Assembly (NCBI GenBank): GCA_028345955.1
Contig: JAOMEO010000004.1
Span: forward strand, 1 to 64,000
Reading direction: 5' to 3'
From: Candidatus Thioglobus sp.
GTDB taxonomy: Bacteria > Pseudomonadota > Gammaproteobacteria > PS1 > Pseudothioglobaceae
Length of the DNA stretch: 64,000 bases
The position numbers and the translations under genes are program-made. Under the pieces are notes generated by a model. It did no database searches and was not told the origin of the DNA. It worked only from the letters and a program-made list of their open reading frames with translations. This document shows, one piece after another, positions 11,471 to 35,156 of this stretch. Positions within the stretch are counted from its first letter, which is position 1. Every line of letters starts with the position of its first letter.

Positions 11471-12463
11471 TTACTTGCACTGGTTTGCAGTAATAACTAC
11501 AGTATTAAATATCTCGTCAACACTACAACCTCTTGATAGATCATTTACAGGCTTGGCCATCCCTTGAAGGATTGGCCCAATCGCTTTAGCACCTGAAAAT
11601 CGTTGAACAAGCTTATAACCAATATTTGCTGCGTCTAAGTTTGGAAAGATAAGAACATTGGCAGGTGGTACAAAAGTTGCTTCAGGATATTTTATTTGTA
11701 ACACCTTACTTTCTAATGCTGCATCCAATTGAATGTTGCCAATAATATCAACATCTGGCAATTTAGTCTTACAGATACTGGTCGCTAGTCTTACTTTTTC
11801 AACTTGAGAGTGTTGGGTGCTTCTATTAGTGGAAAAAGAAAGCATTGCAATTTTTGGCTTAATGTCTAAATCTTTTGCAGATTTAAAGGCACTTTGTGCT
11901 ATTTCAGCTAACTCTTCTACAGACGGGTCAATATTCATTGCACAGTCGGAAAAAATAATATTCTCCCCATATTTTTGATGATTATGGTCAAAAATCATCA
12001 AAAAAAAGCTAGACACAAGTTTACTGTTATTTGAAACACCAATAATTCTCAATGCATTACCAAGGACCTTTTGACTGGGAGTGATTGCACCAGTTACAAG
12101 TCCATCTACCTCATCTCTATGTAAGGCCAACATTGCAAAAACAGTAGGGTCATTTACTAAATCTAGAGACTCATTGAGCTCCAAACCTTTATGTTTGCGT
12201 CTCTCAAACAAAGTTTTGGCATAATCGTTTCTTAATTTTTCGTCGTTTGGATCGATAAATTCTAGGTCATGCCTTTTGCTCTTTTCTGACAGTTCTAATT
12301 GAGAACAAATTTGATCCTCATTGCCAAGAAGAACAATTTTCGCAATTTTTTCAGTGGATAGTGATAATGCTGCCTGTATAACGCGCAGATCAGTCGATTC
12401 TGGTAGTAAGATTCGCGGATAAATCTTCTGTGCTCTATTGGTTAACTTTTCCAGTAATGCCAT
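11471..12463 (-). CDS. pta: Phosphate acetyltransferase
   Basis: 'RILLPESTDLRVIQAA', 'VDGLVTGAI', 'VLIFPNLDAANIGYKLVQRFSGAKAIGPILQGMAKPVNDLSRGCS'. Confidence 0.92.
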   Translation of the reverse strand: MALLEKLTNRAQKIYPRILLPESTDLRVIQAALSLSTEKIAKIVLLGNEDQICSQLELSEKSKRHDLEFIDPNDEKLRNDYAKTLFERRKHKGLELNESLDLVNDPTVFAMLALHRDEVDGLVTGAITPSQKVLGNALRIIGVSNNSKLVSSFFLMIFDHNHQKYGENIIFSDCAMNIDPSVEELAEIAQSAFKSAKDLDIKPKIAMLSFSTNRSTQHSQVEKVRLATSICKTKLPDVDIIGNIQLDAALESKVLQIKYPEATFVPPANVLIFPNLDAANIGYKLVQRFSGAKAIGPILQGMAKPVNDLSRGCSVDEIFNTVVITANQCK

Positions 12464-12550
12464 TATAAAGTTCCCATTAACAAGGGATTAGTTTACCCGA
12501 AAAAGGCTTTAAATCCCCTACCTTAACGATGTGAACAGAAAATTGTTTAA

Positions 12551-15472
12551 TTAAGCTTGTTTGAACTGTTCGGCTATTTTAAGCCTCTGTATTTTTCCTG
12601 AAGGACCTTTAGGTAATGGTTCATCAACAAATATAATCTGGCTTGGAGTTTTGTATTCACCTAAATCAGCTATACATAAATCTATTAATTCTTTCTCGTT
12701 TGCTTTGAAATTATCTTTAAGAAAAACACAAGCTGAAATCTCTTCTCCATAGTCTTCATCAAATATTCCAAAAGTACATACCTCTAAAACAGAGTTGTGT
12801 TTATAAATTGTGTCATCAATCTCTCTTGGAGAGATATTCTCGCCGCCTTTTATAATAAGTTCTTTCTTTCTTCCAGTAATAAAAAAGAAGCCATCTTCAT
12901 CTTCAACTCCCAGGTCTCCCGTCAAAAAATATCCGTCTTTAGTAAAAGATGATTTTGTAGCCTCTTCATTGTTATAGTATTGCTTCATAACGTTGTCACC
13001 TTTAATAACCAACTCGCCAGATTCACCTGGTTCAACAAAATTACCCTGATCATTAACAACTCTAACTTCATTTCCATAGGCTATACCTGCAGAGCCATGC
13101 TTATAGTTGTCTAACGGATTTGAAAGGATTTGCGCTGCAGTTTCAGTAAGACCCATCGTTTCCACAATATTTACCTTAAATACTTGCTCAAACTTTTTAT
13201 GCACTTCTGGTGAAAGAGGTGCAGAAGCTGAACGACCAAAACGAATACTGCTCAGGTTAAGCTTACTGACATTAAAATTATCATTCAAAAGATAACTAAT
13301 GATTGTTGGCACAACACTGAACCAAGTGCACTGATATTTCTCAAGCATTTGCCAAAAATTAGAAACACTAAATTTGCTAATAATTACTACACAGCTGTTA
13401 CTCACCAAAGCACTAGAGATAGAAACCATTTCGGCATTAATATGATAAAGTGGTAGCACACATAAAGACACATCATTGGGTGCAATTTCGTGTGCTAAAA
13501 CAGTGTTTCTACCCCCTGCAATTACATTTTGATGGGAAAGCATAACCCCCTTTGGTAAGCCAGTTGTACCAGATGTATAAATCAAAACAGCCGGTGTATC
13601 AGAGCTTAGATTGCCCTTCAGTGAATTTATATTGTTTTCACCAGAACAATTCAAATCTTTAACTTTTTCATATACAAAAACACTAGCCTTTGAACTCTTT
13701 AGAATACTTTCAAACTTATCTAAATAAATTTTCGATGTAAAAAGTAATTTGCATTCAGAGTGATTAATTGTGTACTCTATTTGATTATTGCCTGCAAGAA
13801 TATTTATTGGAACAATAGTTACACCGTGATACATTGCTCCTAAAAATAACATAACTGATGCGTAACTATTATCAAGCAAAAAACCAACTTTATCTTTAAA
13901 TTGAATGCCTTGTTCATTCAAGAAATAACCCAAGAGAATAATGTCCTTTTTAAGCTGAGCATAAGATATGTGCAAATCAAGGTCAGCATCGATAAGGAAT
14001 GTTTTATCTGGAGTACTTTCAGCATATTTGTCAACAAGCACCTTTATTGTTGAGCCTATTGAGGGATATTTCTTCCAATAACTCGAAAAGATTTCATCCT
14101 CTGATGGTTCATTAGCTTTGATTGTTTTGACAATTTTTGTAATATTCAAGTAGTGTTTGTAATTGAGATTCTCATCAATGATATTGTTGCCCCAAGTTCC
14201 ACAGCCCATAGAGAGCGAAAAAGGTAAACTATTGTCAAAATTTCCACCAGTAGCGAAGCAATGAGCTTGGTTAACAATAACCCTACAAACCGGTAACTCA
14301 TTACCGAGTCTCATAATATTGTCTTCGTTTTTGCTATGAATACTACAAGAGTGTCCTTGCCCCTGATGTTGTAAGATTTTGTTTACCAAATTAACAGCGT
14401 GATCAAAGTCTCTAGCTCGGTAAACAGCCAACACAGGAGAGAGTTTTTCTCTTGAAAATGGATAATTTTCTCCTATACCATCCTCTTCTACCATTAAAAA
14501 CTCAGTTTTAGAATATTTTTTTGTATCGAGGCCTACAAGGGTCGCAATTTTAGAGGCCCTTTTAGCTATGATATCGCGGTTAATAATGAGATCTTCATTC
14601 CACATCTTTTTACCGAGGATTTTCTTTTCTTTTGCATTTAATAATGCGCCACCCTCTTTCTCTAAAACCTTAATCAATTTTTCGTAAACACTATCAACAA
14701 CGATGATGCTATTTTCAGAAGAACAGCTTGTTGCGTAGTCAAATGTTTTCGAGGTTTTTATTTTATGAGCAGCATCCTTTAAATCAGCACTAGAATCAAT
14801 AATTGCGGGCACATTTCCTACACCAACACCTAGGGTCGGGGTACCACTTTGAATGGCTCTTTTAATGTTATTTTGAGAGCCTGTAGCAACAACCAAATCT
14901 ACTAGGTTAGTTAATTCATTGGTGTCTTTTTTATCTATAGGGTCAGATAGTGACTGCACAATGTTGATTGGGGCGCCAACGCGCCCAAGAGCCTTCTGTA
15001 TCAAGCCTACGACCTCTGTACAAACCAAAGCACCTTTTGGTGAAGGTGCTAATATAATCGCGTTCCTACATTTTAAGGCATTAATGACTTTGTTTAGTGG
15101 TGTGGCAATCGGATTAGTTGAAGGAACAATTGCGCCAACCACACCAACCGGTCTTGCAATTTCAATAAGTCCTTTTTCATCATCTTGATTAATTATTCCG
15201 ACTGTTTTAATATTCTTTAAATCTCTTAATAAACCAATAGTTTTACGTTTATTTTTTCTCTTTTTATCCTCCACATTACCAAGACCGGTTGTTTTAACAG
15301 CAAGCTCGGATAAGGATTGATTGTTTTCGGGTTTGATTACTTCCCAAGCGACAGCAAGTATCAATTCGTCAACTTGTTCCTGTGAATACCCATTTATTGA
15401 GGTTTGGGCATCCCTTGCTTTTGTTATTAATTGTTTGATATGAGAGTTACTCATTTGATTGTATTTAGTCAT
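12551..15472 (-). CDS. Bifunctional fusion: CoA-acylating aldehyde dehydrogenase (N-term) + AMP-forming acyl-CoA synthetase (C-term); candidate sulfoacetaldehyde dehydrogenase/sulfoacetate-CoA ligase
   Basis: N-half 'RPVGVVGAIVPSTNPIATPLNK...ATSCSSENSIIVVD...SLSMGCGTWGNN' (acylating ALDH); C-half 'LIYTSGTTGLPKGVMLSHQN...FFITGRKKELIIKGGENISPREID...GKIQRLKI' (ANL ligase). Substrate assigned from context. Confidence 0.8.
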   Translation of the reverse strand: MTKYNQMSNSHIKQLITKARDAQTSINGYSQEQVDELILAVAWEVIKPENNQSLSELAVKTTGLGNVEDKKRKNKRKTIGLLRDLKNIKTVGIINQDDEKGLIEIARPVGVVGAIVPSTNPIATPLNKVINALKCRNAIILAPSPKGALVCTEVVGLIQKALGRVGAPINIVQSLSDPIDKKDTNELTNLVDLVVATGSQNNIKRAIQSGTPTLGVGVGNVPAIIDSSADLKDAAHKIKTSKTFDYATSCSSENSIIVVDSVYEKLIKVLEKEGGALLNAKEKKILGKKMWNEDLIINRDIIAKRASKIATLVGLDTKKYSKTEFLMVEEDGIGENYPFSREKLSPVLAVYRARDFDHAVNLVNKILQHQGQGHSCSIHSKNEDNIMRLGNELPVCRVIVNQAHCFATGGNFDNSLPFSLSMGCGTWGNNIIDENLNYKHYLNITKIVKTIKANEPSEDEIFSSYWKKYPSIGSTIKVLVDKYAESTPDKTFLIDADLDLHISYAQLKKDIILLGYFLNEQGIQFKDKVGFLLDNSYASVMLFLGAMYHGVTIVPINILAGNNQIEYTINHSECKLLFTSKIYLDKFESILKSSKASVFVYEKVKDLNCSGENNINSLKGNLSSDTPAVLIYTSGTTGLPKGVMLSHQNVIAGGRNTVLAHEIAPNDVSLCVLPLYHINAEMVSISSALVSNSCVVIISKFSVSNFWQMLEKYQCTWFSVVPTIISYLLNDNFNVSKLNLSSIRFGRSASAPLSPEVHKKFEQVFKVNIVETMGLTETAAQILSNPLDNYKHGSAGIAYGNEVRVVNDQGNFVEPGESGELVIKGDNVMKQYYNNEEATKSSFTKDGYFLTGDLGVEDEDGFFFITGRKKELIIKGGENISPREIDDTIYKHNSVLEVCTFGIFDEDYGEEISACVFLKDNFKANEKELIDLCIADLGEYKTPSQIIFVDEPLPKGPSGKIQRLKIAEQFKQA

Positions 15473-15480
15473 AAGTAATC

Positions 15481-15511
15481 TACTGAAGCGCTTTAATAAA
15501 GCGCTTCAGTA
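15481..15511. promoter_or_regulatory. Perfect 14-bp stem-loop between tctC and the fusion gene
   Basis: tactgaagcgcttt-aat-aaagcgcttcagta; no T-tract on either side. Confidence 0.7.
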
Positions 15512-15537
15512 AGAAAAGATCCCAATAAAAGGTTATC

Positions 15538-16497
15538 TTATTGGAGACCTGCTAGTAGATCAGTCAAGTAAGCCTGTCTTTCATTCCACATTGCGATGAC
15601 TTCATCTCTTGTCATCACTCTTGCAGGTGAGTTAGTAGACTTCATCTTGCCTTGAGTCTTTTTGTCGTTGAACATATCAGGAGTCTTACTTGCCAAGAAA
15701 TCAATAACGTCTTGAGGAGTTCCAGCTGGAACCATCAAGCCACGGAAATTGACACTTGAATCATCGACATCAACACCACTTTCCATTAGTGTAGGAACAT
15801 CTGGAAGATATGCATGTCTTGTAAGGTCTGCAACGGCTAAGATTTTAAGATCAGCAGCACTTCTAGCTGAGTCCGACAAGTTATTAAAACCTGCACTGAC
15901 TTCACCAGCTTTAACCAATCTCAATGCATCAACACCACCTTTGGCAGGGATATAAGTCAAGTCTCTACCCGAAGCTTTAGCAAACTGCAAGAATGCAATA
16001 TGGTGACCCACAAATTTACCAGCGCCACTAATAGTTACAGCGCCTGGATTAGCATCAGCGTGTGCAAGCAAGTCAGCTACAGTGTTAAAAGGACTGTCTT
16101 TGCCAACAATCAGCACTGCTGGATCAGCACCCCAGTTACCTAATGGTTCAAGGGTATTGATATTGTAAGCAGTATCAAACACAATTGACTGTGCTATAAA
16201 GTGAGGCACATTGTATGCTGCTAACATAGAGCCGTCTTTTGGGGCTTCGCTAGCAAACCAGTTCCAACCAGTCCTTCCACCTGCACCAGGTTTGTTAAGA
16301 ATATAAATTGGTTGACCAATTAAAGCCTCTTTACCAGACGCTAATGTTGCAATTCTTGCCTGAAAATCTGTCGCACCACCAGGTCCGTAAGCCACCATAA
16401 CCCCGATTGGTTTATCAGGATAATCGGCTTGAGCATGCATAAACATCAGTGACGTTAGTGCAAGCAAGGCAATTTTAGTTATTTTCATAAGTTTCAT
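15538..16497 (-). CDS. tctC: TTT-family (tripartite tricarboxylate transporter) periplasmic binding protein, TctC-like
   Basis: 'ADYPDKPIGVMVAYGPGGATDFQAR' signature, signal peptide. Confidence 0.9.
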   Translation of the reverse strand: MKLMKITKIALLALTSLMFMHAQADYPDKPIGVMVAYGPGGATDFQARIATLASGKEALIGQPIYILNKPGAGGRTGWNWFASEAPKDGSMLAAYNVPHFIAQSIVFDTAYNINTLEPLGNWGADPAVLIVGKDSPFNTVADLLAHADANPGAVTISGAGKFVGHHIAFLQFAKASGRDLTYIPAKGGVDALRLVKAGEVSAGFNNLSDSARSAADLKILAVADLTRHAYLPDVPTLMESGVDVDDSSVNFRGLMVPAGTPQDVIDFLASKTPDMFNDKKTQGKMKSTNSPARVMTRDEVIAMWNERQAYLTDLLAGLQ

Positions 16498-16525
16498 TTA
16501 GTTTTTCTCCTTTTGGTTTAGTTTA

Positions 16526-16981
16526 TTAAAAAAACAACCCTCCTGGCAAACGCACTTGTAACATTAATGTGAATAAACTGTACAGTATTAAAATAAATAC
16601 TGCTGAGATACTCAACTTCATAAGTAACACACGCCAAAAGTCCTTGGTTTCTTCGGGTTTTTTATAAATCATTATTACCGCGAAGAACATAATCATTGAT
16701 GCCATATAAAAGCCGATAGTATTCATACTTATAAGATAAGCAAGAATAAGGCCTAGTCCTGGCAACAAATCCATAAAATTAGTTGATTTTCCTTTTTCGT
16801 CACGCTCGAACCACAAAAGCAATGCTAGTACTGCAATGCCACCAGATATAAATCTTGGGAATAGATAGTCCTCATTTTCACCCCAGGGACTGGGATTGAA
16901 GACCTCTTGAAACGAGGTAAATAGCAATGCTGCCGCTAGTGCAGTTACAATTAATGTCGAAATTTTTAAATACTGGTTCAT
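16526..16981 (-). CDS. tctB: TTT transporter small membrane subunit, TctB-like
   Basis: Four hydrophobic helices, position between tctA and tctC; ATG at 16981 abuts the tctA stop. Confidence 0.8.
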   Translation of the reverse strand: MNQYLKISTLIVTALAAALLFTSFQEVFNPSPWGENEDYLFPRFISGGIAVLALLLWFERDEKGKSTNFMDLLPGLGLILAYLISMNTIGFYMASMIMFFAVIMIYKKPEETKDFWRVLLMKLSISAVFILILYSLFTLMLQVRLPGGLFF

Positions 16982-16982
16982 A

Positions 16983-18485
16983 TTACGTACTTCTCTTTGA
17001 TTTGCGATTTGAATAGAGGCCATAAGTAATAGATGCTATGCAAATAACAATGAGGGTTACATTGATAGTACCCGTTGTAAAATATATCATCCAATCATCA
17101 CCATATCGAGCGCCTCCAATTAACTTACCGAGAAGGAAATTGTTTTCAGCTATTGGACCTAATATAATTCCTAACACAACCGGCACAGCGCTAAAACCTG
17201 CCTTACTGGCAAAAAACATAATAGTTCCCAAGACCACCATAATGAGGACGTCAGAGTATGAGTTGCCAATACTGTATGTGCCAAACACTGCCAAAACTAA
17301 AATACTTACCGCCATGTAGTTATCTGGCACTTTCATAATCCAACCACTATGTCGACTCAAAAATAGGCCAATAATCAACATGAAAATTTGTGCAAGAATT
17401 AAAGAGTCGATAAATGTCCAAACAACCGGTGCAGTGTTCTCGGACACAAAAATTTCATGACCAGGAAAAATTCCATGAATCAATAAACCTCCCAATAATA
17501 CTGCAGCAGTCGGACTGCCTGGAATACTTAAAGTGAGCAATGGAATTAGAGAAGGCCCCACCATTGAATTGTTTGCACTCTCTGCGGCAATAATTCCTTC
17601 AGGCTCACCCTTTCCATAATTTGACTGGTTTTTACTTACTTTTTTGGTTTGATCGTAAGCCACTAATCCAGCTATTTGACCCCCTGCTCCAGGAATGATT
17701 CCAACAAGAGATCCTATAAATGATCCTATTGAAAGAGCTTTAACTTTACCGAATACAAATCTAAACGATTGCATCAAACTGGAATGACCCTCTGTTGAAA
17801 GAACTGGGTGTTTTTCGCTATAGTACTTCTCCATTAAGTTAAGCACTTGAGGCATTGCAAACAAGCCTATCAAACCAACAACAATGTTAACTCCACCCTC
17901 TAAATGGTCAGTAAATACAAATCTCTCCACACCCAAAACTGGGTTGTCTCCGATAGTGGCTAGCATTAAACCGAATAAACCTGATAGTAGTCCTTTGACA
18001 ACTGATTTGGAATCTATGGTCGCAATAATGGTAATTCCCAAAATGGCAATCCAAAACAACTCTGTAGTGCCAAACTCCAACGATAAACGTGCTAATGGAG
18101 GGGTAAAAAATATAAGAATAAAGACACCAAAAATACCACCTACAAAGGAACTCATAAAGCAATAATGTAGGGCCTCCCTAGACAATCCTTTTTTAGCCAT
18201 TTGATGACCATCCATCGCTGTTGCAATATTGGCCGGCGCACCAGGGACATTAACTAATATTGCACTTATAGCACCACCAGCAACAGTTGCTGTATACATC
18301 GCACCCAGTAAGATCAGACCACTTTCAGGCTTCATATGAAACGTAAAAGGAATCAGTAGTGCTACAGACATTGTTGGGCTTAGTCCAGGAAGCGCTCCAA
18401 GAATAATTCCTGCAAAGGTTCCGCCTACAAGTAGCGCTATGTGATAAACGGTGAAAACATTAGAAAAATAGTCTAGAAATTCCAT
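16983..18485 (-). CDS. tctA: TTT transporter large membrane subunit, TctA-like
   Basis: 'GALPGLSPTMSVALLIPFTFHMKPESGLILLGAMYTATVAGGAISAILVNVPGAPANIATAMDG'. Confidence 0.93.
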   Translation of the reverse strand: MEFLDYFSNVFTVYHIALLVGGTFAGIILGALPGLSPTMSVALLIPFTFHMKPESGLILLGAMYTATVAGGAISAILVNVPGAPANIATAMDGHQMAKKGLSREALHYCFMSSFVGGIFGVFILIFFTPPLARLSLEFGTTELFWIAILGITIIATIDSKSVVKGLLSGLFGLMLATIGDNPVLGVERFVFTDHLEGGVNIVVGLIGLFAMPQVLNLMEKYYSEKHPVLSTEGHSSLMQSFRFVFGKVKALSIGSFIGSLVGIIPGAGGQIAGLVAYDQTKKVSKNQSNYGKGEPEGIIAAESANNSMVGPSLIPLLTLSIPGSPTAAVLLGGLLIHGIFPGHEIFVSENTAPVVWTFIDSLILAQIFMLIIGLFLSRHSGWIMKVPDNYMAVSILVLAVFGTYSIGNSYSDVLIMVVLGTIMFFASKAGFSAVPVVLGIILGPIAENNFLLGKLIGGARYGDDWMIYFTTGTINVTLIVICIASITYGLYSNRKSKRST

Positions 18486-18552
18486 TCTTTAATCATTCAG
18501 CTTATTAAATAAATAATAGAAAAGTAAATTATGAGTATTAAAACTAATATTA

Positions 18553-18566
18553 ACTCATATATATGA
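18553..18566. promoter_or_regulatory. Candidate GntR operator (partial palindrome)
   Basis: actcatatatatga (core tcatatatatga is a 12-bp palindrome); shares its sequence with the site at 18695. Confidence 0.5.
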
Positions 18567-18694
18567 CCTGTTGATAGTACACTTAGGTCAGGAAGTTGTC
18601 AAATGATATTCTAAAAAAAAGATAGATGCTTTTATAATAAGTTTAAAAGAACTAAACAGACAAAAATGGCGTTAATTTAGGATTAGAACTAACA

Positions 18695-18714
18695 ATACTC
18701 ATATATATGAGTAT
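18695..18714. promoter_or_regulatory. Candidate GntR operator (20-bp perfect palindrome)
   Basis: atactcatatatatgagtat in the divergent tctA/gntR intergenic region. Confidence 0.6.
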
Positions 18715-18776: not shown

Positions 18777-19499
18777 ATGAATAAAAAGCTTTACCATAAA
18801 GTCATAGATTATATAAACGAAGAAATAACTAGTGGCAACCTCACCATTGGTGATTTGCTTCCTTCTGAAACACAGCTATCCAAATTGTTAAATGTTAGTG
18901 TTGGAACTGTAAGAAAAGCAATAGACAAATTAGAAAACAGTAATCTTTTGTATCGTCACCACGGTAAAGGGACCTATGTCTCTGATTATGGATTTGACAA
19001 TAGTATGTTTAACTTTTTTAGTTATGGTAGTGAAACAGGTTCATCAATTAGAATCTACAAAACCACTCCAATACGAAAAAAAACAACCGCCACTACAGAG
19101 GTAGCCTTGCAGTTAGAAATAGAGCGTGGTGCGGACGTTATTTATCTCGAAAGAAGAGGTTATATAGATGAAAAAAATCCGATTATCATTGAAAAATCTT
19201 GGTGGATTGCAGAGGTTGTCGAAGGTCTTCAAAAACCTAACATACATATACCTGATCTACTCTATGCCCTTATCTATAAAAAATTTGCAACACAAATCAT
19301 AACATCAAAAGAAGTATTAACTGCAGGTATTGCTGATAGCAAAACGGCGAAAATTCTACACATAAATAAAGGCGATCCTGTGGTCATATTAAATCGATAC
19401 TCTTATGCAAAGGATAAAGGTTTGGTTGAGTTTCGTATAACCACCGGCAGAGCTGACATGTTCAGTTATAGAACTACAATTGGTAACAACGATTATTAA
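18777..19499 (+). CDS. GntR-family transcriptional regulator (HutC/UTRA subfamily)
   Basis: 'GDLLPSETQLSKLLNVSVGTVRKAIDKLENSNLLYRHHGKGTYVSDY' wHTH plus UTRA-like C-terminal domain. Confidence 0.9.
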   Translation: MNKKLYHKVIDYINEEITSGNLTIGDLLPSETQLSKLLNVSVGTVRKAIDKLENSNLLYRHHGKGTYVSDYGFDNSMFNFFSYGSETGSSIRIYKTTPIRKKTTATTEVALQLEIERGADVIYLERRGYIDEKNPIIIEKSWWIAEVVEGLQKPNIHIPDLLYALIYKKFATQIITSKEVLTAGIADSKTAKILHINKGDPVVILNRYSYAKDKGLVEFRITTGRADMFSYRTTIGNNDY

Positions 19500-24029: not shown

Positions 24030-24448
24030 AGCAAGTACTAAAGCTTACGCTTAAAGATGCAAAGAAAATGATGGATGGTGCCATTAATAAAGCCATCGAG
24101 ATAGGTGTAGATATGGATATCGCGATTGTGGACGATGGTGGTCACCTTATGTTATTTACAAGAATGGATAATGCAAGAATTACAAGCATTAATATCTCCA
24201 TCGATAAGGCTTTTACTGCGGCGGCAGCTAGAAAAGCAACCTTAGATTATGGTAATGCTGTTCGTAATCACGGCCCAGCCTTTGGCATCCAAACTTCACA
24301 TCAAGGTCGTTTTTGTGTCGTAGGTGGTGGCTTGCCGCTTTTTGTCGATAGTCAGATTGTTGGTGGGATTGGTTGCAGTTCTGGTACTCCTGACCAAGAT
24401 ATAGTGGTTGCTCAAGCGGGGCTTGACGCATGTCTTAAAGCTAAATAA
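24026..24448 (+). CDS. GlcG/HbpS-family (heme-binding-like) protein
   Basis: 'VDMDIAIVDDGGHLMLFTRMDNARITSINISIDKAFTAAAARKAT...VGGIGCSSGTPDQDIVVAQAGL'. Confidence 0.85.
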   Translation: MKQVLKLTLKDAKKMMDGAINKAIEIGVDMDIAIVDDGGHLMLFTRMDNARITSINISIDKAFTAAAARKATLDYGNAVRNHGPAFGIQTSHQGRFCVVGGGLPLFVDSQIVGGIGCSSGTPDQDIVVAQAGLDACLKAK

Positions 24449-25064: not shown

Positions 25065-26837
25065 TTAACGATGTTTCGTGTCACTACCGTAGTCTTTATA
25101 TTTAGGCAAATGACGGACTGGCTTACTCAATGCATCCTTTCTGAATGGGTCACCGAGTTCACGAGTACACATAATTTCAATAATTGTTGTCTTTCTTTCA
25201 TTCATTTGCATATCTATAGCTGTTTTCAGTGCTGGACCTACATCCTCAAGTTTATTAACATGAATACCTTCAGCGCCCATTGACTTTGCAATACTAACAA
25301 AATCTTGATCTGTAAGTTCTGCAGCGACGAAGCGTCTGTCATAGAAGTCTACTTGGTTTTTCTTTTCTGCACCCCAATGACGATTATGGAACACAACTGC
25401 TGTTACAGGTATGTCATGGCGAACACATGTCATCGTCTCAACCATACTCATTGCCCAAGCGCCGTCACCCGCATAAGAGACAGCAGGTCTATTTTGTGCA
25501 GCAGCTTTTGCTCCGATTATTGTTGGGAAGGCATAACCACAATTACCCCAGCTCATTGCTGCAAAGAAGCTACGAGGTTTTTCAAAACGAAGATAACTAT
25601 TTGCAACAGAATTAATATTACCAATATCTGTTGACACCATGACGTCATCAGGCATTGCTTTTTCTAGTTCACGCAAAACTTGCCTAGGGTGAAGCCAACC
25701 CTCTTCCTTATTAGCGATCATGTCCATACTATATGAGTCAGTTTCATGAATCCACTCATCCAACTCTAGCTCCCAAACTGCTTTTTCATCGGCAATCTTT
25801 TGCGCTCTTTCTTCTTTTGTTGAATCACAGGAAAGTTTTGCAGAAACTAATTTTTCGCAAAGCGATTCAGCAACAGCCTTTGCATCACCACAAATACCCA
25901 CAGTAATTGACTTAACTAATCCAAGCATTTTATGATCTGCATCTATTTGGATGATTTTGGCGTCTTTTGGCCAATAATCCATTCCATGCTGAGGTAATGT
26001 TCCAAATGGTCCTAGGCGAGTTCCTAATGCAATGACAACGTCTGCCTGTGATATCAGTTTCATGCCTGCTTTCGAGCCTTGATATCCTAATGGTCCACAC
26101 CAGAGGTCATGACTTGCAGGAAAAGAGTCGTTATGGAGATAACTATTTACAACTGGAGCACCTAACCGCTCGGCTAATGCTATACATTCTTGAACACCAT
26201 CGGCCATCACTACACCACCACCAGAAACAATTACAGGAAATTTGGCTTTAGCGATTAAAGCTACAGCTTCATTTAAAGTCTCTTCGCCACCCGTACCTCG
26301 ATCAATTCTTCGAGGTTGAGGAATTGTAAATTCACCTTCTGCATAAAAATAATCCCTCGGTATGTTGAGTTGAGTAGGCGCCATTTCGCTCATTGCTCTA
26401 TCAAAACAACGACCAGTAAACTCAGCCATCCTCATTGGATTGACGACATGACCTTGGTATTTAGTAAATTCTTGAAACATTGGTAGTTGATTGGTTTCTT
26501 GGAATCCACCTAAACCAATACCGCCAGTTCCAGCCTCAGGAGTAACAATTACCACTGGACTATGAGCCCAATAAGCCGCTGCAATTGCAGTCACACAGTT
26601 TGATATACCTGGACCATTTTGACCAATACAAACGCCATGCCTTCCACTCACTCTGGAATAGCCATCAGCCATATGAGCAGCACCCTGTTCATGAACCACC
26701 GGAACAAATCTTATGCCTGCAGGTTCAAAAATATCCATAGCATCCATGAATGCTGAACCCATAATACCAAAGATATCCTTAACACCATTTGCAACCATTG
26801 TTTCAACAAAGGCTTCACTTGCAGTCATTTTCGACAT
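25065..26837 (-). CDS. xsc: Sulfoacetaldehyde acetyltransferase (ThDP-dependent)
   Basis: 'MTASEAFVETMVANGVKDIFGIMGSAFMDAMDIFEPAGIRFVPVVHEQGAAHMADGY', 'MSWGNCGYAFPTIIGAKAAAQNRPAVSYAGDGAWAMS'. Confidence 0.94.
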   Translation of the reverse strand: MSKMTASEAFVETMVANGVKDIFGIMGSAFMDAMDIFEPAGIRFVPVVHEQGAAHMADGYSRVSGRHGVCIGQNGPGISNCVTAIAAAYWAHSPVVIVTPEAGTGGIGLGGFQETNQLPMFQEFTKYQGHVVNPMRMAEFTGRCFDRAMSEMAPTQLNIPRDYFYAEGEFTIPQPRRIDRGTGGEETLNEAVALIAKAKFPVIVSGGGVVMADGVQECIALAERLGAPVVNSYLHNDSFPASHDLWCGPLGYQGSKAGMKLISQADVVIALGTRLGPFGTLPQHGMDYWPKDAKIIQIDADHKMLGLVKSITVGICGDAKAVAESLCEKLVSAKLSCDSTKEERAQKIADEKAVWELELDEWIHETDSYSMDMIANKEEGWLHPRQVLRELEKAMPDDVMVSTDIGNINSVANSYLRFEKPRSFFAAMSWGNCGYAFPTIIGAKAAAQNRPAVSYAGDGAWAMSMVETMTCVRHDIPVTAVVFHNRHWGAEKKNQVDFYDRRFVAAELTDQDFVSIAKSMGAEGIHVNKLEDVGPALKTAIDMQMNERKTTIIEIMCTRELGDPFRKDALSKPVRHLPKYKDYGSDTKHR

Positions 26838-26857: not shown

Positions 26858-27976
26858 TTAATTTTTTAGCGCGTCAGACGCTGATACATATTCATAACCC
26901 AAATCTTCGGCTACTTCACGACATGTTACCTTGCCTTTATGAACATTTAAACCTGCTCTAAGGTGTTCATCGTCAAGTAATGCCTGTTTAACCCCTTTAT
27001 TAGCAATATCAATTGCGAATGGTAGAGTTACATTATTAAGCGCAAATGTTGATGTTTTAGGGACACCACCTGGCATATTGGCTACACAATAATGAACAAC
27101 ATCATCCACAATATATGTCGGATTTGCATGCGTTGTTGCTTTTGAGGTTTCAAAGCAACCGCCTTGGTCAATCGCTACATCAACAACAACTGAACCAGGC
27201 TTCATTGCCTTAATCATCTCTTTTGTAACTAGTTTTGGCGCTTCAGCACCAGGTATTAAAACTCCCCCAATGACTAAATCAGCTTTTAGTACATATTGTT
27301 CAACTGTACTTTGAGTTGAAAAAACGGTATTCGTACTACGACCAAATTGTTGCCAATGTTTTTCTAATGTGTCAGGATTATTGTCAAGCACCCAAACATC
27401 AGCCCCCATTCCTACTGCCATATGAGCGGCATGGGCACCTACAACACCTCCACCCAAAATTACAACTTTTAATGGGTTAACACCAGGTACACCTCCAAGT
27501 AAAGCTCCCATGCCGCCATTAGGGTGTTCCAAAAAGTGTGCACCTGCCTGAACAGCCATTCTCCCAGCAACTTTTGACATTGGTGCTAATAGCGGCAAAC
27601 CGCCTCGAGGAGATGTTACCGTCTCGTAAGCAATACAAGTAGCGCCACTTTTAATTAAATCTTTTGTCTGTTCAGGGTCTGGAGCAAGATGAAGATAGGT
27701 ATAAAGTATTTGACCTTCTCTGAGCATAGCTCTCTCATTTGCTTGAGGTTCTTTAACCTTGACGATCATTTCTGAAGTTGCAAAAACCTCTTCAGCAGTC
27801 GCTATAATTTCAGCACCATTTTCACTGTAATCATCATCACTTGCACCAATTCCATTACCAGCATTAGTTTGGACCATCACTTGGTGACCGTTTCTGACAA
27901 GTTCCTTAACACTTCTTGGTGTTAAGCCAACTCTGTATTCGTGGTTTTTAATTTCTTTTGGTACTCCAATAATCAT
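26858..27976 (-). CDS. ald: Alanine dehydrogenase
   Basis: '[20 protein letters not shown]', '[25 protein letters not shown]', '[18 protein letters not shown]'. Confidence 0.95.
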
Positions 27977-28036
27977 ATCAAATATCTTGTTTATAAAAAA
28001 CGAGAGATTATACTGAACTAGCGCTCAATTTAACTA

Positions 28037-29395
28037 TTAATTAACCTCAAGGGCGCTGTCAACAGCTTCAATAATAAGATCGACTTCATTTTTAGTGCAT
28101 ATAAATGCTGGGCTAAATAGCAATACATTATTGTTATGCTCGAAACATCTATTGGTTCTTCCAATCATTACTTTATTTTTCAAGCAATGACTAACGATTG
28201 ACATTGCAACTGTTTCATCTACAGGCTCTTTAGTTTGCCTATCTTTGACAAGCTCTAGGCCACAAAATAAACCCTTTCCACGAACTTCACCAATTATTTG
28301 ATGTTTTTCTTCAAGTTCATACAGCCTACTTTTTAAATATCCACCAACAGTATTAACATTTTCAAGAAGCTTATCTCTTTTAATAATATTTAAAGTTTCC
28401 AAAGCAGCAGCTGGACCAGCCGTACATCCTCCAAATGTAGATATATCTCTGAAATAGCTGTCAGGGTTACTTGAATCCTCTTTAAACATTTCAAAAACTT
28501 TATCAGAAGTAACTGTTACTGATATCGCTGCATAACCAGCCGCCAGACCTTTCGCTACAGTTACAATATCAGGCTGCACATCATAATTTTGATAACCAAA
28601 CCATTTTCCAGTCCTTCCAAGACCGCAAACCACTTCGTCAATATGAAGCAACACATCATACTTTCTACAGATTGATTCAATGATTGGGAAATACTCTGGC
28701 ACTGGAGTAATAACTCCACCACCTGCAGTTATTGACTCTAAAACTACAGATCCGACATTATCTGCACCCTCTTTTTGAATAACATCTTCAAGAGCGTGAG
28801 CACATTCAATATTACATTCACCATATTTTTTACCAAACGGACAGCGGTAACAGCAACAATTTGGCATTTCAACAAAACCAGGCGCAAATGGTCCATATTG
28901 CTTTGTTCTTTGAATTTGACCAGATGAGCTCATTGCACCAATGGTTGTTCCATGATAGTCACGGTCACGATATATAATTTTATGTTTTTTTCCTTCATTA
29001 TGAAAATGGGCAATTTGTCGTACCATTTTGTAGCCTTTTTCATTAGCTTCAGAACCTGAATTTGAATAATAAACACGATCTAAACCAGGCATAATTGAGG
29101 TTAACTCTTTTGCATATTGTGCAGCTGGCTCATTACCAACGACGCCTGCGAAATAGGGAATTTTTGATAACTGATTACTGACAGTATCTACCATTTCATC
29201 CCTTCCATAGCCAAGGTTAACAGTCCATACTCCGCCAGAAGTTGCGTCTAAATATTCATCACCTTTGGTATCAGTTACATACATTCCTTTTCCTTTTGAA
29301 ACCACAAGTGGGTCACTCGATTCAAAAGCTTTATGCTGAGTTAAATGATGCCAAACATGTTTCTTATCATTTTGTATAATTTTGCTTTCAGACAT
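28037..29395 (-). CDS. tpa: Taurine--pyruvate aminotransferase
   Basis: Class-III aminotransferase 'HVWHHLTQHKAFE...KGDEYLDATSGGVWTVNLGYGR', 'LLHIDEVVCGLGRTGKWFGYQNYDVQPDIVTVAKGLAAGYAA'; neighbours xsc/ald/tau. Confidence 0.92.
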   Translation of the reverse strand: MSESKIIQNDKKHVWHHLTQHKAFESSDPLVVSKGKGMYVTDTKGDEYLDATSGGVWTVNLGYGRDEMVDTVSNQLSKIPYFAGVVGNEPAAQYAKELTSIMPGLDRVYYSNSGSEANEKGYKMVRQIAHFHNEGKKHKIIYRDRDYHGTTIGAMSSSGQIQRTKQYGPFAPGFVEMPNCCCYRCPFGKKYGECNIECAHALEDVIQKEGADNVGSVVLESITAGGGVITPVPEYFPIIESICRKYDVLLHIDEVVCGLGRTGKWFGYQNYDVQPDIVTVAKGLAAGYAAISVTVTSDKVFEMFKEDSSNPDSYFRDISTFGGCTAGPAAALETLNIIKRDKLLENVNTVGGYLKSRLYELEEKHQIIGEVRGKGLFCGLELVKDRQTKEPVDETVAMSIVSHCLKNKVMIGRTNRCFEHNNNVLLFSPAFICTKNEVDLIIEAVDSALEVN

Positions 29396-29473
29396 ATTAA
29401 ATCCTTGATATTAAATTTAGTTTAATTCAGAATATTGAATTGTAAAATATAAGTGGTCATAGTATAAAGAAAT

Positions 29474-31942
29474 TTAATTTCTAATTTTCTTATTTAATGG
29501 ATCGTACATTGGCGTAAGAGAAGCTTTAGCTTTTTCAACTACACCTTCGACCTCAATACTATATTCAGCATTTAAAATATCCTCGTGACTCTCGTTAGGC
29601 AAGCATGTAACATACCCAAGACCGACTGCACCCTCAAGGGTATGGCTATAGGTTCCACTAGTTAAGTACCCAACTATATCTCCATTCTTAAGAATAGGTT
29701 CATTATGGTATAGCATTAACTCGGGATTACTTAGCAAAAATTGCATTACACGCTTTTCATAACCAGAGGTTTTTTTAGCTTCAACAGCATCGTAACCTAT
29801 GAATTTTCCAAACTTTGATGTTGTCTTTTGTAATTTGACAGCAAAACCAAGTCCTGCATCTATTACGTGATCTTCATCGGTAATATCGTGCCCAAAATGT
29901 CTATATGCTTTCTCAATACGGCAACTATCTACAGTATGCATTCCACAATATCTTAAAGAGTATTTTTCACCTACAGAATCAATTAAATCTGCAACATAGT
30001 TTGAAAACTCGATAGGAAAGTATAGTTCCCAACCTAATTCTCCAACATAAGTAATACGATGAGCGCGGACATTTGCCATACCAACTTCAATATTTCGAAC
30101 ATTTGCAAATGGGAAGCTTTCATTACTCATATCAGTATCAGTAAGGGATTGAATAAGGTCTCTTGAATTAGGTCCCATAATGGCTAAACAACCTTCGGAA
30201 CTTGTGGCATCAAAAAGTGAACAGTTCGCATTTTTAGGCATGTTTTTTCTTAGCCAATGCATGTCTCGATTAAGGCACATTGTTCCGCTAACTATTAAGA
30301 AGTCGTCATGATCTAAACGGGAAACAGTTACATCTGCCTCAATCCCTCCTCTATGATTTAACCACTGAGTATATGCCAACTTTCCAATCTCAATATCAAC
30401 ATCATTAGCACAAATCATTTGAAGGTAATCCATTGCATCTGAACCTTTGACTCTGATTTTTGCATAAGAAGACATTTCATAAACTCCAACACTTTCTCTA
30501 ATCGCTTGTTGCTCTAATTTTTGAAATTCAAACCAATTTTGTCTACCCCATGAATACTCATACTTAGCTTCAATCTTGCCAATCATCTCTTTAGGAACAA
30601 ACCAGTTAGCTCTCTCCCAACCAGCAACTTCACCGAAACATGCACCGCGATCTTTATAAAATTCATAAAGGGGGGTTTTTCTTAGTCCTCTTCCAGTCTC
30701 ATATTGATGATATGGGAAATGATTTTCGTATAGATAGCCTAACGTCTCCGTTACTCGGTTAGCTAGGTATAGTTTATTATTTTGGAATGGGTCGTTTCTT
30801 CTGATATCTACTTCCCATAAATCACAAGGAGGCTCTCCACCAACAATCCACTCAGCTAAATATTTACCTGCACCACCTGCCGCTTGAATGCCAATAGAAT
30901 TAAATCCAGCAGCAACAAAGAAGTTTTCAAGTTCAGGTGACTCTCCTATTTGGAAATTATCATCAGGTGTAAAGCTCTCTGGTCCATTAAAAAAAGTCTC
31001 AATACCTAAGCTTTCCATTACCGGAACTCGATTCATAGCAAGTTCAAGATAAGGCATACAATGCTCCAAATCATCCTGTATTTGGTCAAAGCAAAAATCT
31101 TCAGGAATGCCATTTTGAGCCCATGGCTTAGCATTAGGCTCAAATAAACCAACCAATATTTTTCCAGCATCCTCCTTGTAATACGCAGACTCATCGGGCA
31201 CTCTTACAACAGGCATATCGCCTAAATCTGGAACGGATGAGGTTAGAAAATAAAAATGCTCACAAGCATGAAGAGGTACAGACACTCCAGCCATTCTTCC
31301 AACCTCTCTTGCCCACATTCCACCGCAATTAACAACTACTTCAGATTGTATATCGCCTAACTCAGTTTGAACACCTTTAACTTTTCCATCTTCTTTAAGA
31401 ATACCAGTCACCTTGACATCTTCAAAAATCTTAACTCCATTATTTTTAGCACCTTTTGCGAGTGCCATAGCAACATTAGCAGGGTCAGCCTTTCCATCTT
31501 TTGGTATCCAGGCACCCCCTACTACATCATCAAGGTTAAAGAGATTAATTTTATCTTTAAGTTCTTCCGTAGTTAATATTTGAACATCTACATCATGAAC
31601 CTTTGCAAGTGAAGCATTTCGTTTGAATTCAGTAAGTCTTTCTTGATTCGTCGCAAGACTAACTGAGCCAGTTCGGCGATATCCAGTAGCCATTCCTGTC
31701 TCTGCCTCTAATGTCTCATAAAGGTTTCCTGAGTATTGAACCATTTGAGTTAGGTTCAAAGATGAGCGCATTTGACCTACAAGTCCTGCAGCATGCCAAG
31801 TGGTTCCAGAGGTAAGTTTTTTTCGCTCTAAAAGGACAATATCAGTGTAATCAAGTTTGGCGAGATGGTAAGCTACCGAGCAACCAATAACACCTCCCCC
31901 AATAATTACAACTTGTGCCTCTTTAGGCAATGTATTAGACAT
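29474..31942 (-). CDS. Dimethylglycine/sarcosine dehydrogenase-type FAD oxidoreductase with C-terminal GcvT-like domain (N-methyltaurine dehydrogenase candidate)
   Basis: 'VVIIGGGVIGCSVAYHLAKLDYTDIVLLERKKLTSGTTWHAAGLVGQMR' DAO N-terminus; GcvT-like C-terminus 'YVGELGWELYFPIEF...YRHFGHDITDEDHVIDAGLGFAVKL'. Confidence 0.85.
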   Translation of the reverse strand: MSNTLPKEAQVVIIGGGVIGCSVAYHLAKLDYTDIVLLERKKLTSGTTWHAAGLVGQMRSSLNLTQMVQYSGNLYETLEAETGMATGYRRTGSVSLATNQERLTEFKRNASLAKVHDVDVQILTTEELKDKINLFNLDDVVGGAWIPKDGKADPANVAMALAKGAKNNGVKIFEDVKVTGILKEDGKVKGVQTELGDIQSEVVVNCGGMWAREVGRMAGVSVPLHACEHFYFLTSSVPDLGDMPVVRVPDESAYYKEDAGKILVGLFEPNAKPWAQNGIPEDFCFDQIQDDLEHCMPYLELAMNRVPVMESLGIETFFNGPESFTPDDNFQIGESPELENFFVAAGFNSIGIQAAGGAGKYLAEWIVGGEPPCDLWEVDIRRNDPFQNNKLYLANRVTETLGYLYENHFPYHQYETGRGLRKTPLYEFYKDRGACFGEVAGWERANWFVPKEMIGKIEAKYEYSWGRQNWFEFQKLEQQAIRESVGVYEMSSYAKIRVKGSDAMDYLQMICANDVDIEIGKLAYTQWLNHRGGIEADVTVSRLDHDDFLIVSGTMCLNRDMHWLRKNMPKNANCSLFDATSSEGCLAIMGPNSRDLIQSLTDTDMSNESFPFANVRNIEVGMANVRAHRITYVGELGWELYFPIEFSNYVADLIDSVGEKYSLRYCGMHTVDSCRIEKAYRHFGHDITDEDHVIDAGLGFAVKLQKTTSKFGKFIGYDAVEAKKTSGYEKRVMQFLLSNPELMLYHNEPILKNGDIVGYLTSGTYSHTLEGAVGLGYVTCLPNESHEDILNAEYSIEVEGVVEKAKASLTPMYDPLNKKIRN

Positions 31943-31977
31943 AATTGACGTGAAACTAAAAACTAAGAATTATAAGG

Positions 31978-33246
31978 CTATTTACCTTTCCAGGGTACCA
32001 GATAATTTTCTGCAATACGCATGAGAATATCTATAGAGTATCCTATCACTCCAATCAGAACAATTCCCATAATAACTAGATCGGTCATTTGAAATTTTGA
32101 AGCATTGATTATCATCATGCCTGCACCCTTCTGAGCTGCGACAAGTTCAGCTGCGACAACGGTACCCCAACAAACACCCATGGATACACGGGCACCTGTA
32201 AATATCTCAGGTAGGCTATTAGGCACAATTACCAGTCTCATAATCTGTCGCTTTGACGCCCCAAGAGAGTATGCGGCATGAATTTTACTAATCTTAACTC
32301 CAGAAACACCAGCTCTGGCAGAAATTGTCATAATCCAAAGCGACGCAAGGAAGAGTAAAATTATCTTACCCTCTTCACCAATTCCAAACCAGATAATTAC
32401 CAGTGGAATAAGTGCAAGTGGCGGAACTGGACGCATAAATTCGACGATTGGGTCAAACCAGCCACGAAACCAGCCCGAAAGTCCCATCGCGTAACCAAGC
32501 GGAATACCAATAAGTGCGCCCGCCAAAAATCCAACTACTACACGAATAAGCGACCAGCCAAGGTGTTCTACCAAGGTAAAAGTTTTATACCCTTCAGAAG
32601 CTACCAGAACTAATCTCGACCAAACAGCTTCAGGTGAAGGTAGCCAAATCGGTTGCATCTGCCAACCTTTTTCTGGAGTAAAGCTCAGCGTTCCTTTAGC
32701 GGTCATATAGATTCGAGCATCATCGATAAAAATTTCTGAACTAGGGGAAATTTCCTGACCATTAATAGCAATAACTTTATAACCATCCTCTTTGCTACCA
32801 ACATCATTACGTTTCACTTTAATTAACCCACTACGCCAAGCTACAATATTAGCAGTATCATTTTTTGCAAATCCTGTTCCTGGATCAATCTTCATTTTTG
32901 AAGGCGTTTTGCCAGACTGTATATCGTAAACAGTGACAATAACCTCTGCGTCATCTGTCTCACCCTCTGCATTAATTGCGGTATAGGTAAAGGAAGTTTC
33001 ACCAATAAACGGACCTGGTGCGTGAAAAGGCATCAATTTTGAACCTGTAAATGCCCCCCAAATCATAAAAATAGCCAGAACTGAGATAATTGAGGCGGGT
33101 CGGTTAGGCGAAACGGCGCTTTCATCGCCAAATGTTACAGTTTTAAGACTTGTATAGTCTTTCTGAGCAGTCATCATTTTTGTGGCTATGTGCACTACAT
33201 AAAAAGCAATAATGAAAACAATAATATAGATCAGTAAAATGGCCAT
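31978..33246 (-). CDS. tauC: Taurine-type ABC transporter permease TauC with N-terminal TM pair and periplasmic insert
   Basis: Permease core 'LGYAMGLSGWFRGWFDPIVEFMRPVPPLALIPLVIIWFGIGEEGKIILLFLASLWIM...EIFTGARVSMGVCWGTVVAAELVAAQKGAGMMI'; ~125-aa insert aa 75-200. Confidence 0.88.
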   Translation of the reverse strand: MAILLIYIIVFIIAFYVVHIATKMMTAQKDYTSLKTVTFGDESAVSPNRPASIISVLAIFMIWGAFTGSKLMPFHAPGPFIGETSFTYTAINAEGETDDAEVIVTVYDIQSGKTPSKMKIDPGTGFAKNDTANIVAWRSGLIKVKRNDVGSKEDGYKVIAINGQEISPSSEIFIDDARIYMTAKGTLSFTPEKGWQMQPIWLPSPEAVWSRLVLVASEGYKTFTLVEHLGWSLIRVVVGFLAGALIGIPLGYAMGLSGWFRGWFDPIVEFMRPVPPLALIPLVIIWFGIGEEGKIILLFLASLWIMTISARAGVSGVKISKIHAAYSLGASKRQIMRLVIVPNSLPEIFTGARVSMGVCWGTVVAAELVAAQKGAGMMIINASKFQMTDLVIMGIVLIGVIGYSIDILMRIAENYLVPWKGK

Positions 33247-34088
33247 CAGTTGTTCTCCACTCTACCCATAATTTCTTCTTCCATCTCCCAAATAATGGAA
33301 AGTATTTCATCTCGAGTTTCGATATATCCTTCAGATTTTTTGACTTCTCGAAGATCCATACCGGAACCCATTTCAGCATAAGGAAGTTTGTATTCTTTTA
33401 GGATCCTCCCGGGTCTTGGAGCCAATACCAGAAGTCTCTCGCCGAGCAAAACTGCTTCCTCGACGGAATGTGTTATCAGCATAATCGTCTTTCCTGTTTC
33501 TTTCCAGAGCTTGAGCACCAAACCTTGCATCTTTTCGCGAGTTAGTGCATCCAGAGCCCCCAAGGGTTCATCCATCAAAATAACATCTGGATCGTTTGCT
33601 AGACAGCGCGCTAAAGCAACCCGTTGCTGCATTCCACCCGAGAGTTCGTAAACCGCTTTGTCTTCGAAATCATGAAGCCCGACTACTTCCAACAGGTGCT
33701 GGACTTTTTCATTTTGCTCTGCTTTTGGCATACCCTTCATTCGTGGTCCAAAGGCAACATTTGAACGCACATTCATCCACTCAAAGAGTGCTCCCTGTTG
33801 GAAAACCATACCACGTTCAGCACCTGGTCCAAGAACGGTCTGATCGTTGAGAACGACTTGCCCTTCAGTCGGAGCTAAAAAACCTGCAATAATATTTAAG
33901 AGTGTTGTTTTACCGCAACCTGATGGCCCAAGTACGGTAATAATTTGTCCCTCTCCGATCTCCAGAGATATATCTTTAAGTGCCTGAATTGATTTTCCAT
34001 CTTTTAAATCAAAACGCATCGATATGTTTTCAATTGATAATCCTTTCAAATCAATCTCCGGTGTTTTTTCAGTAAAAAGGTGGCACAC
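33246..34088 (-). CDS. tauB: Taurine-type ABC transporter ATP-binding protein TauB
   Basis: Walker A 'GPSGCGKTTLLN', 'LSGGMQQRVALARCLANDPDVILMDEPLGALD'. The listed start is a GTG inside a hairpin; a TTG near 34049 is more plausible. Confidence 0.9.
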   Translation of the reverse strand: MCHLFTEKTPEIDLKGLSIENISMRFDLKDGKSIQALKDISLEIGEGQIITVLGPSGCGKTTLLNIIAGFLAPTEGQVVLNDQTVLGPGAERGMVFQQGALFEWMNVRSNVAFGPRMKGMPKAEQNEKVQHLLEVVGLHDFEDKAVYELSGGMQQRVALARCLANDPDVILMDEPLGALDALTREKMQGLVLKLWKETGKTIMLITHSVEEAVLLGERLLVLAPRPGRILKEYKLPYAEMGSGMDLREVKKSEGYIETRDEILSIIWEMEEEIMGRVENN

Positions 34089-34105
34089 TAATAGTGCGCC
34101 ACCTT
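34070..34105 (-). terminator. Intrinsic terminator/attenuator between tauA and tauB
   Basis: Minus strand AAGGTGGC-G-CACT-ATT-AGTG-T-GCCACCTT + TTTTA: 13 paired positions counting a G.U, then a T-run. Confidence 0.7.
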
Positions 34106-34160
34106 AAGTCTAACAGATACTTAGATATCAGACATTTATTTAAGTCCGATATTTAGTATT

Positions 34161-35156
34161 TTATTGGCTTGCTAATGCTTCCAAACCGTCTGTATTAACT
34201 GCACCTGCATATGAGCCACGTGCACTTGGGATTTCACCAGCATTAACAAATACATCAGCTACACCCTTAAGGAATTCTACTCCTGAACTGCCAAGCCATG
34301 CGCTTGATAGTTGGTTACTGACTGATGGGAATACAAATGTAGACATGGTGTCAGCAGTTGCAGCCTCATCCATACCAGCATCTCTTGCAATATGAGGAAG
34401 CATTAGTGAAGTAAATCCACCAGAATTCCACATTGCATTAGAAGCAGCTGTTACTCCCAAGAATGTCGATAAAACTTCAGCGTTTTCATTAGCAAATTGT
34501 GCTGTTGTTGAAGTTACATCCCAAACTAGGATACCTAGTGCTGTTTTCTCTGCGCCAGTCAAAAGCACATTACCATGTTCTAAGGCACGGCGAAGTGATC
34601 CACCCCAGCCACAGAATACATCAACACTACCTTGAGCAAAAGCAGCCGCACCTTCTGGTGGAGCCATATCAACAACATCCATTGAAGCTACATCAACACC
34701 AAAATGATCCATCTGCTTTAAGTAACCGTAGTGAGCTGCAGTACCGATTGGTACAGAAACTTTTAATCCGGCTAACTCAGAGGCATTGCTTGCGTCAATT
34801 TCAAGAGCTGAAGCTACAACACAGTTGTCATTGTCAGCGTAGCTAACTGCCACGTCAACAATTTGCAAGTCTTGTCCTGTAGAGGCTGCCACAATAAATG
34901 GCGGCACACCTTGACTCACTGAGATATCAATATCTCCAGAAGCCATAGCGGCTGACATTGCGGTACCAGTACCGAAAGCACTCCAGTTTACTGTCATTCC
35001 TAAAGCTTCGTCATATGCACCAATTTGTTTTGCATATTCAAATGGCATAGGCCACTCTTCAAAGTAAGCAACGTTTAACTCATCAAGAGCCATAACATTG
35101 ACGGTAGCTATTGCACCGACAATCGTGGCTCCAATTTTTTTATAAAGACCTTTCAT
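34161..35156 (-). CDS. tauA: Taurine-type ABC transporter substrate-binding protein TauA
   Basis: 'LNVAYFEEWPMPFEYAKQIGAYDEALGMTVNWSAFGTGTAMSAAMASGDIDISVSQGVPPFIVAAS'; signal peptide; upstream of tauBC. Confidence 0.88.
   Translation of the reverse strand: MKGLYKKIGATIVGAIATVNVMALDELNVAYFEEWPMPFEYAKQIGAYDEALGMTVNWSAFGTGTAMSAAMASGDIDISVSQGVPPFIVAASTGQDLQIVDVAVSYADNDNCVVASALEIDASNASELAGLKVSVPIGTAAHYGYLKQMDHFGVDVASMDVVDMAPPEGAAAFAQGSVDVFCGWGGSLRRALEHGNVLLTGAEKTALGILVWDVTSTTAQFANENAEVLSTFLGVTAASNAMWNSGGFTSLMLPHIARDAGMDEAATADTMSTFVFPSVSNQLSSAWLGSSGVEFLKGVADVFVNAGEIPSARGSYAGAVNTDGLEALASQ

Follow-up and report, generated by a model that had tools for sequence, protein, structure and literature searches.

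Organization of the locus

The 64,000-nucleotide stretch of DNA analyzed here (the window) corresponds to contig 34 in a gammaproteobacterial assembly (G000) of 1.25 Mb in 41 contigs, 81% complete. Between the end of pta (11471) and the start of tauA (35156), we find two operons. Operon A has the order tauA-tauB-tauC-(DMGDH-like)-tpa-ald-xsc, where DMGDH denotes dimethylglycine dehydrogenase, and operon B has the order tctA-tctB-tctC-fusion-pta, with a GntR/UTRA regulator divergent from tctA; the interval between them holds an IclR regulator gene, aceA and aceK, genes for RraA-like and HbpS-like proteins, and a DUF924 gene. The twelve genes of the two operons are all intact and all on the minus strand (Table 1), and the gene content, order and strand that an earlier note on this DNA had assigned to each operon are borne out. 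Ten further genomes of the genus have operon B in the identical order, and the order of operon A is repeated, up to contig limits, in those members of the genus whose xsc region was read. Because both orders recur across the genus, the layout is beyond chance.

Table 1. Features of the locus, in window coordinates, with the models or observations that identify them
Feature	Position	Strand	Basis
pta, phosphate acetyltransferase, 330 aa	11471..12463	-	TIGR00651 343.0 bits vs cut-off 311.2
SauS-SauT fusion, 973 aa, one frame	12551..15472	-	NF047625; Pfam Aldedh, AMP-binding, AMP-binding_C
Hairpin in the tctC/fusion gene gap	15480..15512	-	Compensatory changes across 10 genomes
tctC, TTT-family periplasmic binding protein	15538..16497	-	PF03401 110.5 bits
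tctB, TTT small membrane subunit	16526..17023	-	PF07331 58.3 bits
tctA, TTT large permease	16983..18485	-	PF01970 427.9 bits
Second operator-like site	18553..18568	.	2 mismatches to palindrome ACTCATATATATGAGT
Palindrome ACTCATATATATGAGT, candidate operator of divergent GntR regulator	18697..18712	.	Window search
GntR/UTRA (HutC-type) regulator	18777..19499	+	PF00392 + PF07702
aceA, isocitrate lyase	20376..21683	+	NF011645 759 bits vs 562
aceK, isocitrate dehydrogenase kinase/phosphatase	21755..23560	+	NF002804 693 bits vs 488
xsc, sulfoacetaldehyde acetyltransferase	25065..26837	-	TIGR03457 1014 bits vs 676.4
ald, alanine dehydrogenase	26858..27976	-	TIGR00518 525.7 bits vs 391.85
tpa, class-III aminotransferase, presumed taurine:pyruvate aminotransferase	28037..29395	-	PF00202; position between tau genes and ald-xsc
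DMGDH-like protein of 822 aa with FAD (DAO) and GCV_T domains, candidate N-methyl(taurine) dehydrogenase	29474..31942	-	4pab match
tauC-like permease, 422 aa	31978..33246	-	NF007545 231.5 bits vs 342, residues 197-421
tauB-like ATPase	33246..34088	-	NF008421 290.7 bits vs 357
tauA-like binding protein	34161..35156	-	TIGR01729 125.1 bits vs 304.25

Predicted taurine genes and a dimethylglycine dehydrogenase-like protein in operon A

Judged by their scores, the transporter genes of operon A are TauABC-like only: taurine-transporter models are the best matches of TauA, TauB and TauC, at scores below the NCBIfam cut-offs (125/304, 291/357 and 232/342 bits, respectively). The TauC-like permease carries about 190 extra N-terminal residues, and its 422-residue length is constant across the genus. 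Similarly, the tpa product scores 459.7 bits with its best NCBIfam model, PRK07678, under the cut-off of 488. A different aminotransferase (24-25% identity) holds the tpa position in two relatives, G028 (locus L160, 11944-13290) and G016 (L170, 6894-8240); the one in G028 matches the AptA omega-aminotransferase (575 versus 500 bits).

The gene between tauC and tpa had previously been read simply as an FAD oxidoreductase. An FAD protein is indeed encoded there, but in full it combines an FAD and an aminomethyltransferase domain, as dimethylglycine dehydrogenase does; it aligns over its full length with dimethylglycine dehydrogenase 4pab (4pab 44-816 to 8-781, E 3.4e-140) and retains the TWHAAGL motif. 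The gene occupies this position in all members of the genus that are readable there, which suggests that the enzyme is a candidate for demethylation of N-methylated taurines, not of dimethylglycine. Genes for ETF-beta, ETF-alpha and ETF-QO (8142-11469), which are convergent with pta and conserved beside it across the genus, encode possible electron acceptors for such an enzyme.

Operon A might therefore also serve N-methylated taurines, which the DMGDH-like enzyme would demethylate to taurine, with the methyl group passing to folate and the electrons to ETF/ETF-QO, giving a third route into Xsc. This reading adds to, and is compatible with, the conversion of taurine and sulfoacetate to sulfoacetaldehyde that we propose below, and we put it forward tentatively, at somewhat less than an even chance. 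In addition to the position of the gene and the conserved ETF genes, it draws on the TauA/B/C scores below the taurine cut-offs and on homologues in genome G178, where Tpa (61%) and a TauR-like gene are nearby, and in G300, where xsc is. Against it, family members lie beside glycine-betaine genes in Agrobacterium, and homologues in most genomes outside the genus are found away from sulfonate genes; the protein marks taurine clusters outside the genus weakly.

In most relatives, a MocR (TauR-like) regulator gene of about 490 codons lies between the DMGDH-like gene and tpa, divergent from tpa, and splits tauABC and the DMGDH-like gene from tpa-ald-xsc, whereas in the window the seven genes are uninterrupted. 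The regulator gene is missing from the window (29396-29480), with a clean junction (29467/29480 versus 6269/7835 in G022), and was not found elsewhere in the assembly. Since TauR proteins activate taurine genes (PMC5320631), control of operon A is probably different in the window's species.

A SauS-SauT fusion in operon B

The first half of the fusion protein (residues about 1-465) is an acylating sulfoacetaldehyde dehydrogenase (SauS), with a score of 705.5 bits for NF047625 relative to an equivalog cut-off of 600, and the second half (residues about 475-971) is a SauT-type, AMP-forming acyl-CoA ligase (PF00501, PF13193). When 11 fused proteins are compared with 15 unfused pairs, C250 in the TSCSSEN motif of the dehydrogenase half is invariant, as are the P-loop (632-642, YTSGTTGxPKG), D853, R868 and K960 of the ligase half, and both active sites appear intact by these residues. 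An AlphaFold model built from 41 alignment rows, which replaced an earlier model from 11 close sequences (pLDDT 43), has a mean pLDDT of 85.9; its pTM of 0.60 leaves uncertain how the two halves sit relative to each other. The ligase half of the model matches oxalyl-/malonyl-CoA synthetase structures (TMt 0.85 for oxalyl-CoA synthetase) and the dehydrogenase half matches acylating acetaldehyde/succinyl-CoA reductases, and these are the nearest families in sequence too. These matches agree, as would be expected, with a small dianionic acid as the substrate. SauT has no curated equivalog model, and we assigned a candidate ligase substrate from the fusion to SauS and from the adjacency of homologues. 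Together, homology and context support the identity of the protein as SauS plus SauT, and thus the earlier suggestion that it could make sulfoacetaldehyde from sulfoacetate.

Sulfoacetate as the candidate substrate of operon B

We read 20 neighborhoods of unfused SauS genes from other families. Close TctA homologues (52-61% identical) are present in 14 of these, xsc lies in or beside the TTT-sauST cluster in four (L084, L086, L090 and L098), and pta is found in three (L090, L095 and L096). The gene order is sauS-sauT-xsc-tct in L084, xsc-sauT-sauS-tctCBA in L086 (with a divergent GntR protein 48% identical to that of the window) and pta-xsc-sauT-sauS-tctCBA in L090; the order in L095 and L096, tctA/B-tctC-sauS-sauT-pta, is that of operon B in the window without the fusion. 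TctA and TctB are themselves fused, in a protein of about 652 residues, in sau clusters of another gammaproteobacterial family (L093 6211-8169, L095 11692-13653 and L096 5897-7852). The presence of xsc inside an unfused cluster would tie the product of that cluster to sulfoacetaldehyde. Because the unfused relatives sit in TTT-sauS-sauT clusters, some with xsc and pta, sulfoacetate is the best-supported candidate substrate of operon B. The TctA, TctB and TctC Pfam models (PF01970, PF07331 and PF03401) are all over cut-off, indicating a complete TTT transporter, and TctC is 87-99% identical across the genus; we infer import of sulfoacetate by TctABC, with the specificity of TctC lying beyond what sequence can tell.

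Operon B could instead serve a different short acid that resembles a dicarboxylate, such as 3-sulfopropionate, malonate or oxalate, in which case the aldehyde product of the fusion would bypass Xsc. The similarity of the ligase half to oxalyl-/malonyl-CoA synthetases, the many carboxylates carried by TTT transporters and the lack of a curated SauT model are in keeping with such a substrate, but we judge it unlikely given the SauS equivalog score (705/600), the occurrence of xsc and pta within homologous clusters of unrelated families, and the position of pta as the last gene of operon B. AMP-forming, PPi-releasing ligases are in practice one-way. Since the ligase of the fusion is of this type, TctC is a binding protein that points to uptake and pta closes operon B, we consider it highly improbable that the fusion runs in reverse, oxidizing surplus taurine-derived sulfoacetaldehyde to sulfoacetate for export; sulfoacetate is excreted by some bacteria using taurine nitrogen (PMC12625764, citing Krejcik 2008, Neptuniibacter), but the excretion enzyme known from that account is SafD, a different, non-acylating dehydrogenase (PMC12625764).

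Predicted convergence on one Xsc and one Pta

The earlier note's proposal that one Xsc and one Pta could serve two entry routes, from sulfoacetate through operon B and from taurine through operon A, agrees with the gene content. Xsc has one match over cut-off in the window genome; across the genus, 21/29 genomes have one copy over cut-off and none has two. Similarly, the window genome has one PTA gene, and each of the 15 genus genomes tested has only one PTA_PTB gene over cut-off, also where operon B is absent (e.g. G027, G001 and G018) and the gene lies near xsc and ETF genes. With a single Pta and never more than one xsc over cut-off per genome, both routes can share these enzymes. Xsc is over cut-off in 12 of the 13 fusion-bearing genomes compared to 9 of the 16 others (p = 0.04, with counts that ignore relatedness), an association that is weak when taken alone; the fusion is present and xsc absent in G024, the assembly of which is 70% complete.

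We consider it likely that sulfoacetate and taurine are both converted to sulfoacetaldehyde and then processed by the single Xsc and the single Pta. Behind this model stand the gene content, the assignment of SauS, Xsc, Ald and Pta to their families, the intact active-site motifs, the copy numbers and the conserved synteny, all of which are observed; from these we infer all of its substrates, its direction of flux and its regulation. TctABC would import sulfoacetate, the ligase half of the fusion would convert sulfoacetate, ATP and CoA to sulfoacetyl-CoA, AMP and PPi, and the acylating dehydrogenase half would reduce sulfoacetyl-CoA with NAD(P)H to sulfoacetaldehyde. In operon A, Tpa would make sulfoacetaldehyde from taurine while Ald would recycle alanine to pyruvate. 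The single Xsc would then convert sulfoacetaldehyde and phosphate to acetyl phosphate and sulfite, and the single Pta would convert acetyl phosphate to acetyl-CoA. The sulfite may pass to an AprA-type oxidation system encoded elsewhere in the genome; AprA is over cut-off in 21/29 genus genomes, including G000. A broader version, in which three organosulfonates (taurine, N-methylated taurines via the DMGDH-like enzyme, and sulfoacetate) enter one Xsc/Pta in a free-living marine lineage, with the SauS-SauT fusion holding sulfoacetyl-CoA near the second active site, strikes us as speculative and rather unlikely.

Candidate control of operon B

A search for the palindrome ACTCATATATATGAGT that allowed up to 3 mismatches yielded only two matches in the 64-kb window, both in the 291-bp gap between the GntR gene and tctA; 7 of 100 shuffled windows reach two matches anywhere. 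Similar palindromes lie upstream of tctA in other members of the genus, and the GntR/UTRA gene adjoins operon B across the genus. The divergent GntR/UTRA protein probably represses operon B through the ACTCATATATATGAGT site. In 10 genomes, the gap that separates tctC from the fusion gene retains a hairpin, and 8 of its 13 pairs show double changes. Hairpins of this kind often keep the message of a binding protein above that of the downstream genes. In G018 (L164 18408-19625), a 405-aa frame beside IclR fuses Pta to the DNA-binding domain of the GntR protein of operon B, and looks like what remains after operon B (tctABC-sauST) was rearranged and lost.

The two operons and the aceA-aceK interval

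Operon A together with the aceA-aceK locus is the usual arrangement in the genus, but operon B adjoins this region only in G000, G008, G022 and G017, and the distance between the two operons is 118 kb in G006, a complete genome, and about 103 kb in G025. Thus, the order within each operon recurs in the genus, whereas the combined block is restricted to four genomes, and the description of the two operons as one island is not supported.

In relatives, a malate synthase G gene is flanked by the RraA-like gene on one side and by the genes toward xsc on the other (e.g. L161 4346-6493). It is missing from the window (23977-24030) and from G022 at the same junction, and no malate synthase was found elsewhere in either draft assembly. 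Malate synthase G was therefore lost from the locus in both genomes; since both assemblies are incomplete drafts, loss from the whole genome is likely rather than certain. The position of aceA-aceK between the operons had been taken to link the locus to C2 assimilation, but because malate synthase G is missing from the aceA-aceK locus, this glyoxylate-shunt argument fails in the window genome as stated.

Distribution and origin of the fusion

Our scan of genome contigs for the fusion found one relative only, and we then used whole-genome searches, in which the full-length fusion gene is present in 11/29 genus genomes, with contig-end fragments in two more (G017 and G007). A sequencing artefact or frameshift as the source of the fusion is ruled out by its full length in 11 independent genomes. 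None of 50 SauS loci outside the genus is fused, in a sample that spans the class, the phylum and one further class, and nine annotated plasmid records that contain both parts list them as two genes each. The SauS halves of the fused proteins group on a single branch (SH-aLRT 99, in a tree limited to rows on the forward strand of their loci), and by this phylogeny the fusion is of single origin. A 4-base overlap of sauS with sauT is found in 7/15 unfused pairs, a layout that needs little change to become a fusion.

Relation to known systems

Clusters of TTT and sauST genes for sulfoacetate, together with taurine genes, xsc and pta, were predicted in 2025 in sponge symbionts (PMC12625764), where the TTT version of the sauST cluster was called the 'hybrid' type, so that our reading of the pathway has a precedent. 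In those Arctic sponge symbionts, as here, TTT transporter genes lie beside sauST and the taurine genes, xsc and pta are in the same genomes, but the symbionts are alphaproteobacterial and tethybacteral whereas the window is from a different, gammaproteobacterial genus (PMC12625764). The sauST genes of Cupriavidus necator H16 (Weinitschke 2010, via PMC12625764) encode the same acylating SauS and AMP-forming SauT, which convert sulfoacetate to sulfoacetaldehyde for Xsc; as described there, sauS and sauT are separate and transport is by a single-gene MFS transporter, SauU, in contrast to the fused protein and TctABC of the window. The sauSCD-XYZ system of Bilophila wadsworthia (Liu 2023, via PMC12625764) shares the SauS-type dehydrogenase and a TTT transporter (SauXYZ), but has an ADP-forming ligase, SauCD, and, to judge from the title cited in PMC12625764, an isethionate intermediate, unlike the AMP-forming ligase fused to SauS and the Xsc chemistry of the window. 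Operon A has the same predicted enzyme chain as the known tauABC-tpa-ald-xsc clusters for taurine dissimilation with TauR, in which AprA-type sulfite oxidation is possible (PMC5320631; Ca. Taurinisymbion, PMC10356861); relative to these clusters, the window has an extra DMGDH-like gene and lacks the MocR/TauR-like regulator present in relatives.

In contrast to the pathway type, which is already known, the fused SauS-SauT enzyme appears to be new: the main text of PMC12625764 does not mention a fusion, and we found no other report in the open-access literature searched. There is to date little genetic evidence for sulfoacetate as a food of open-ocean bacteria. The fused gene is an unambiguous single-frame marker for marine metagenomes and transcriptomes, since it cannot be confused with generic aldehyde dehydrogenases or acyl-CoA ligases, and because it would place the whole sulfoacetate-to-sulfoacetaldehyde step on one protein, the prediction is easy to test. 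The fusion may also serve as a 'Rosetta stone' argument that the clusters of aldehyde dehydrogenase, AMP-binding and TTT genes with generic annotations in other marine bacteria would serve one substrate together.
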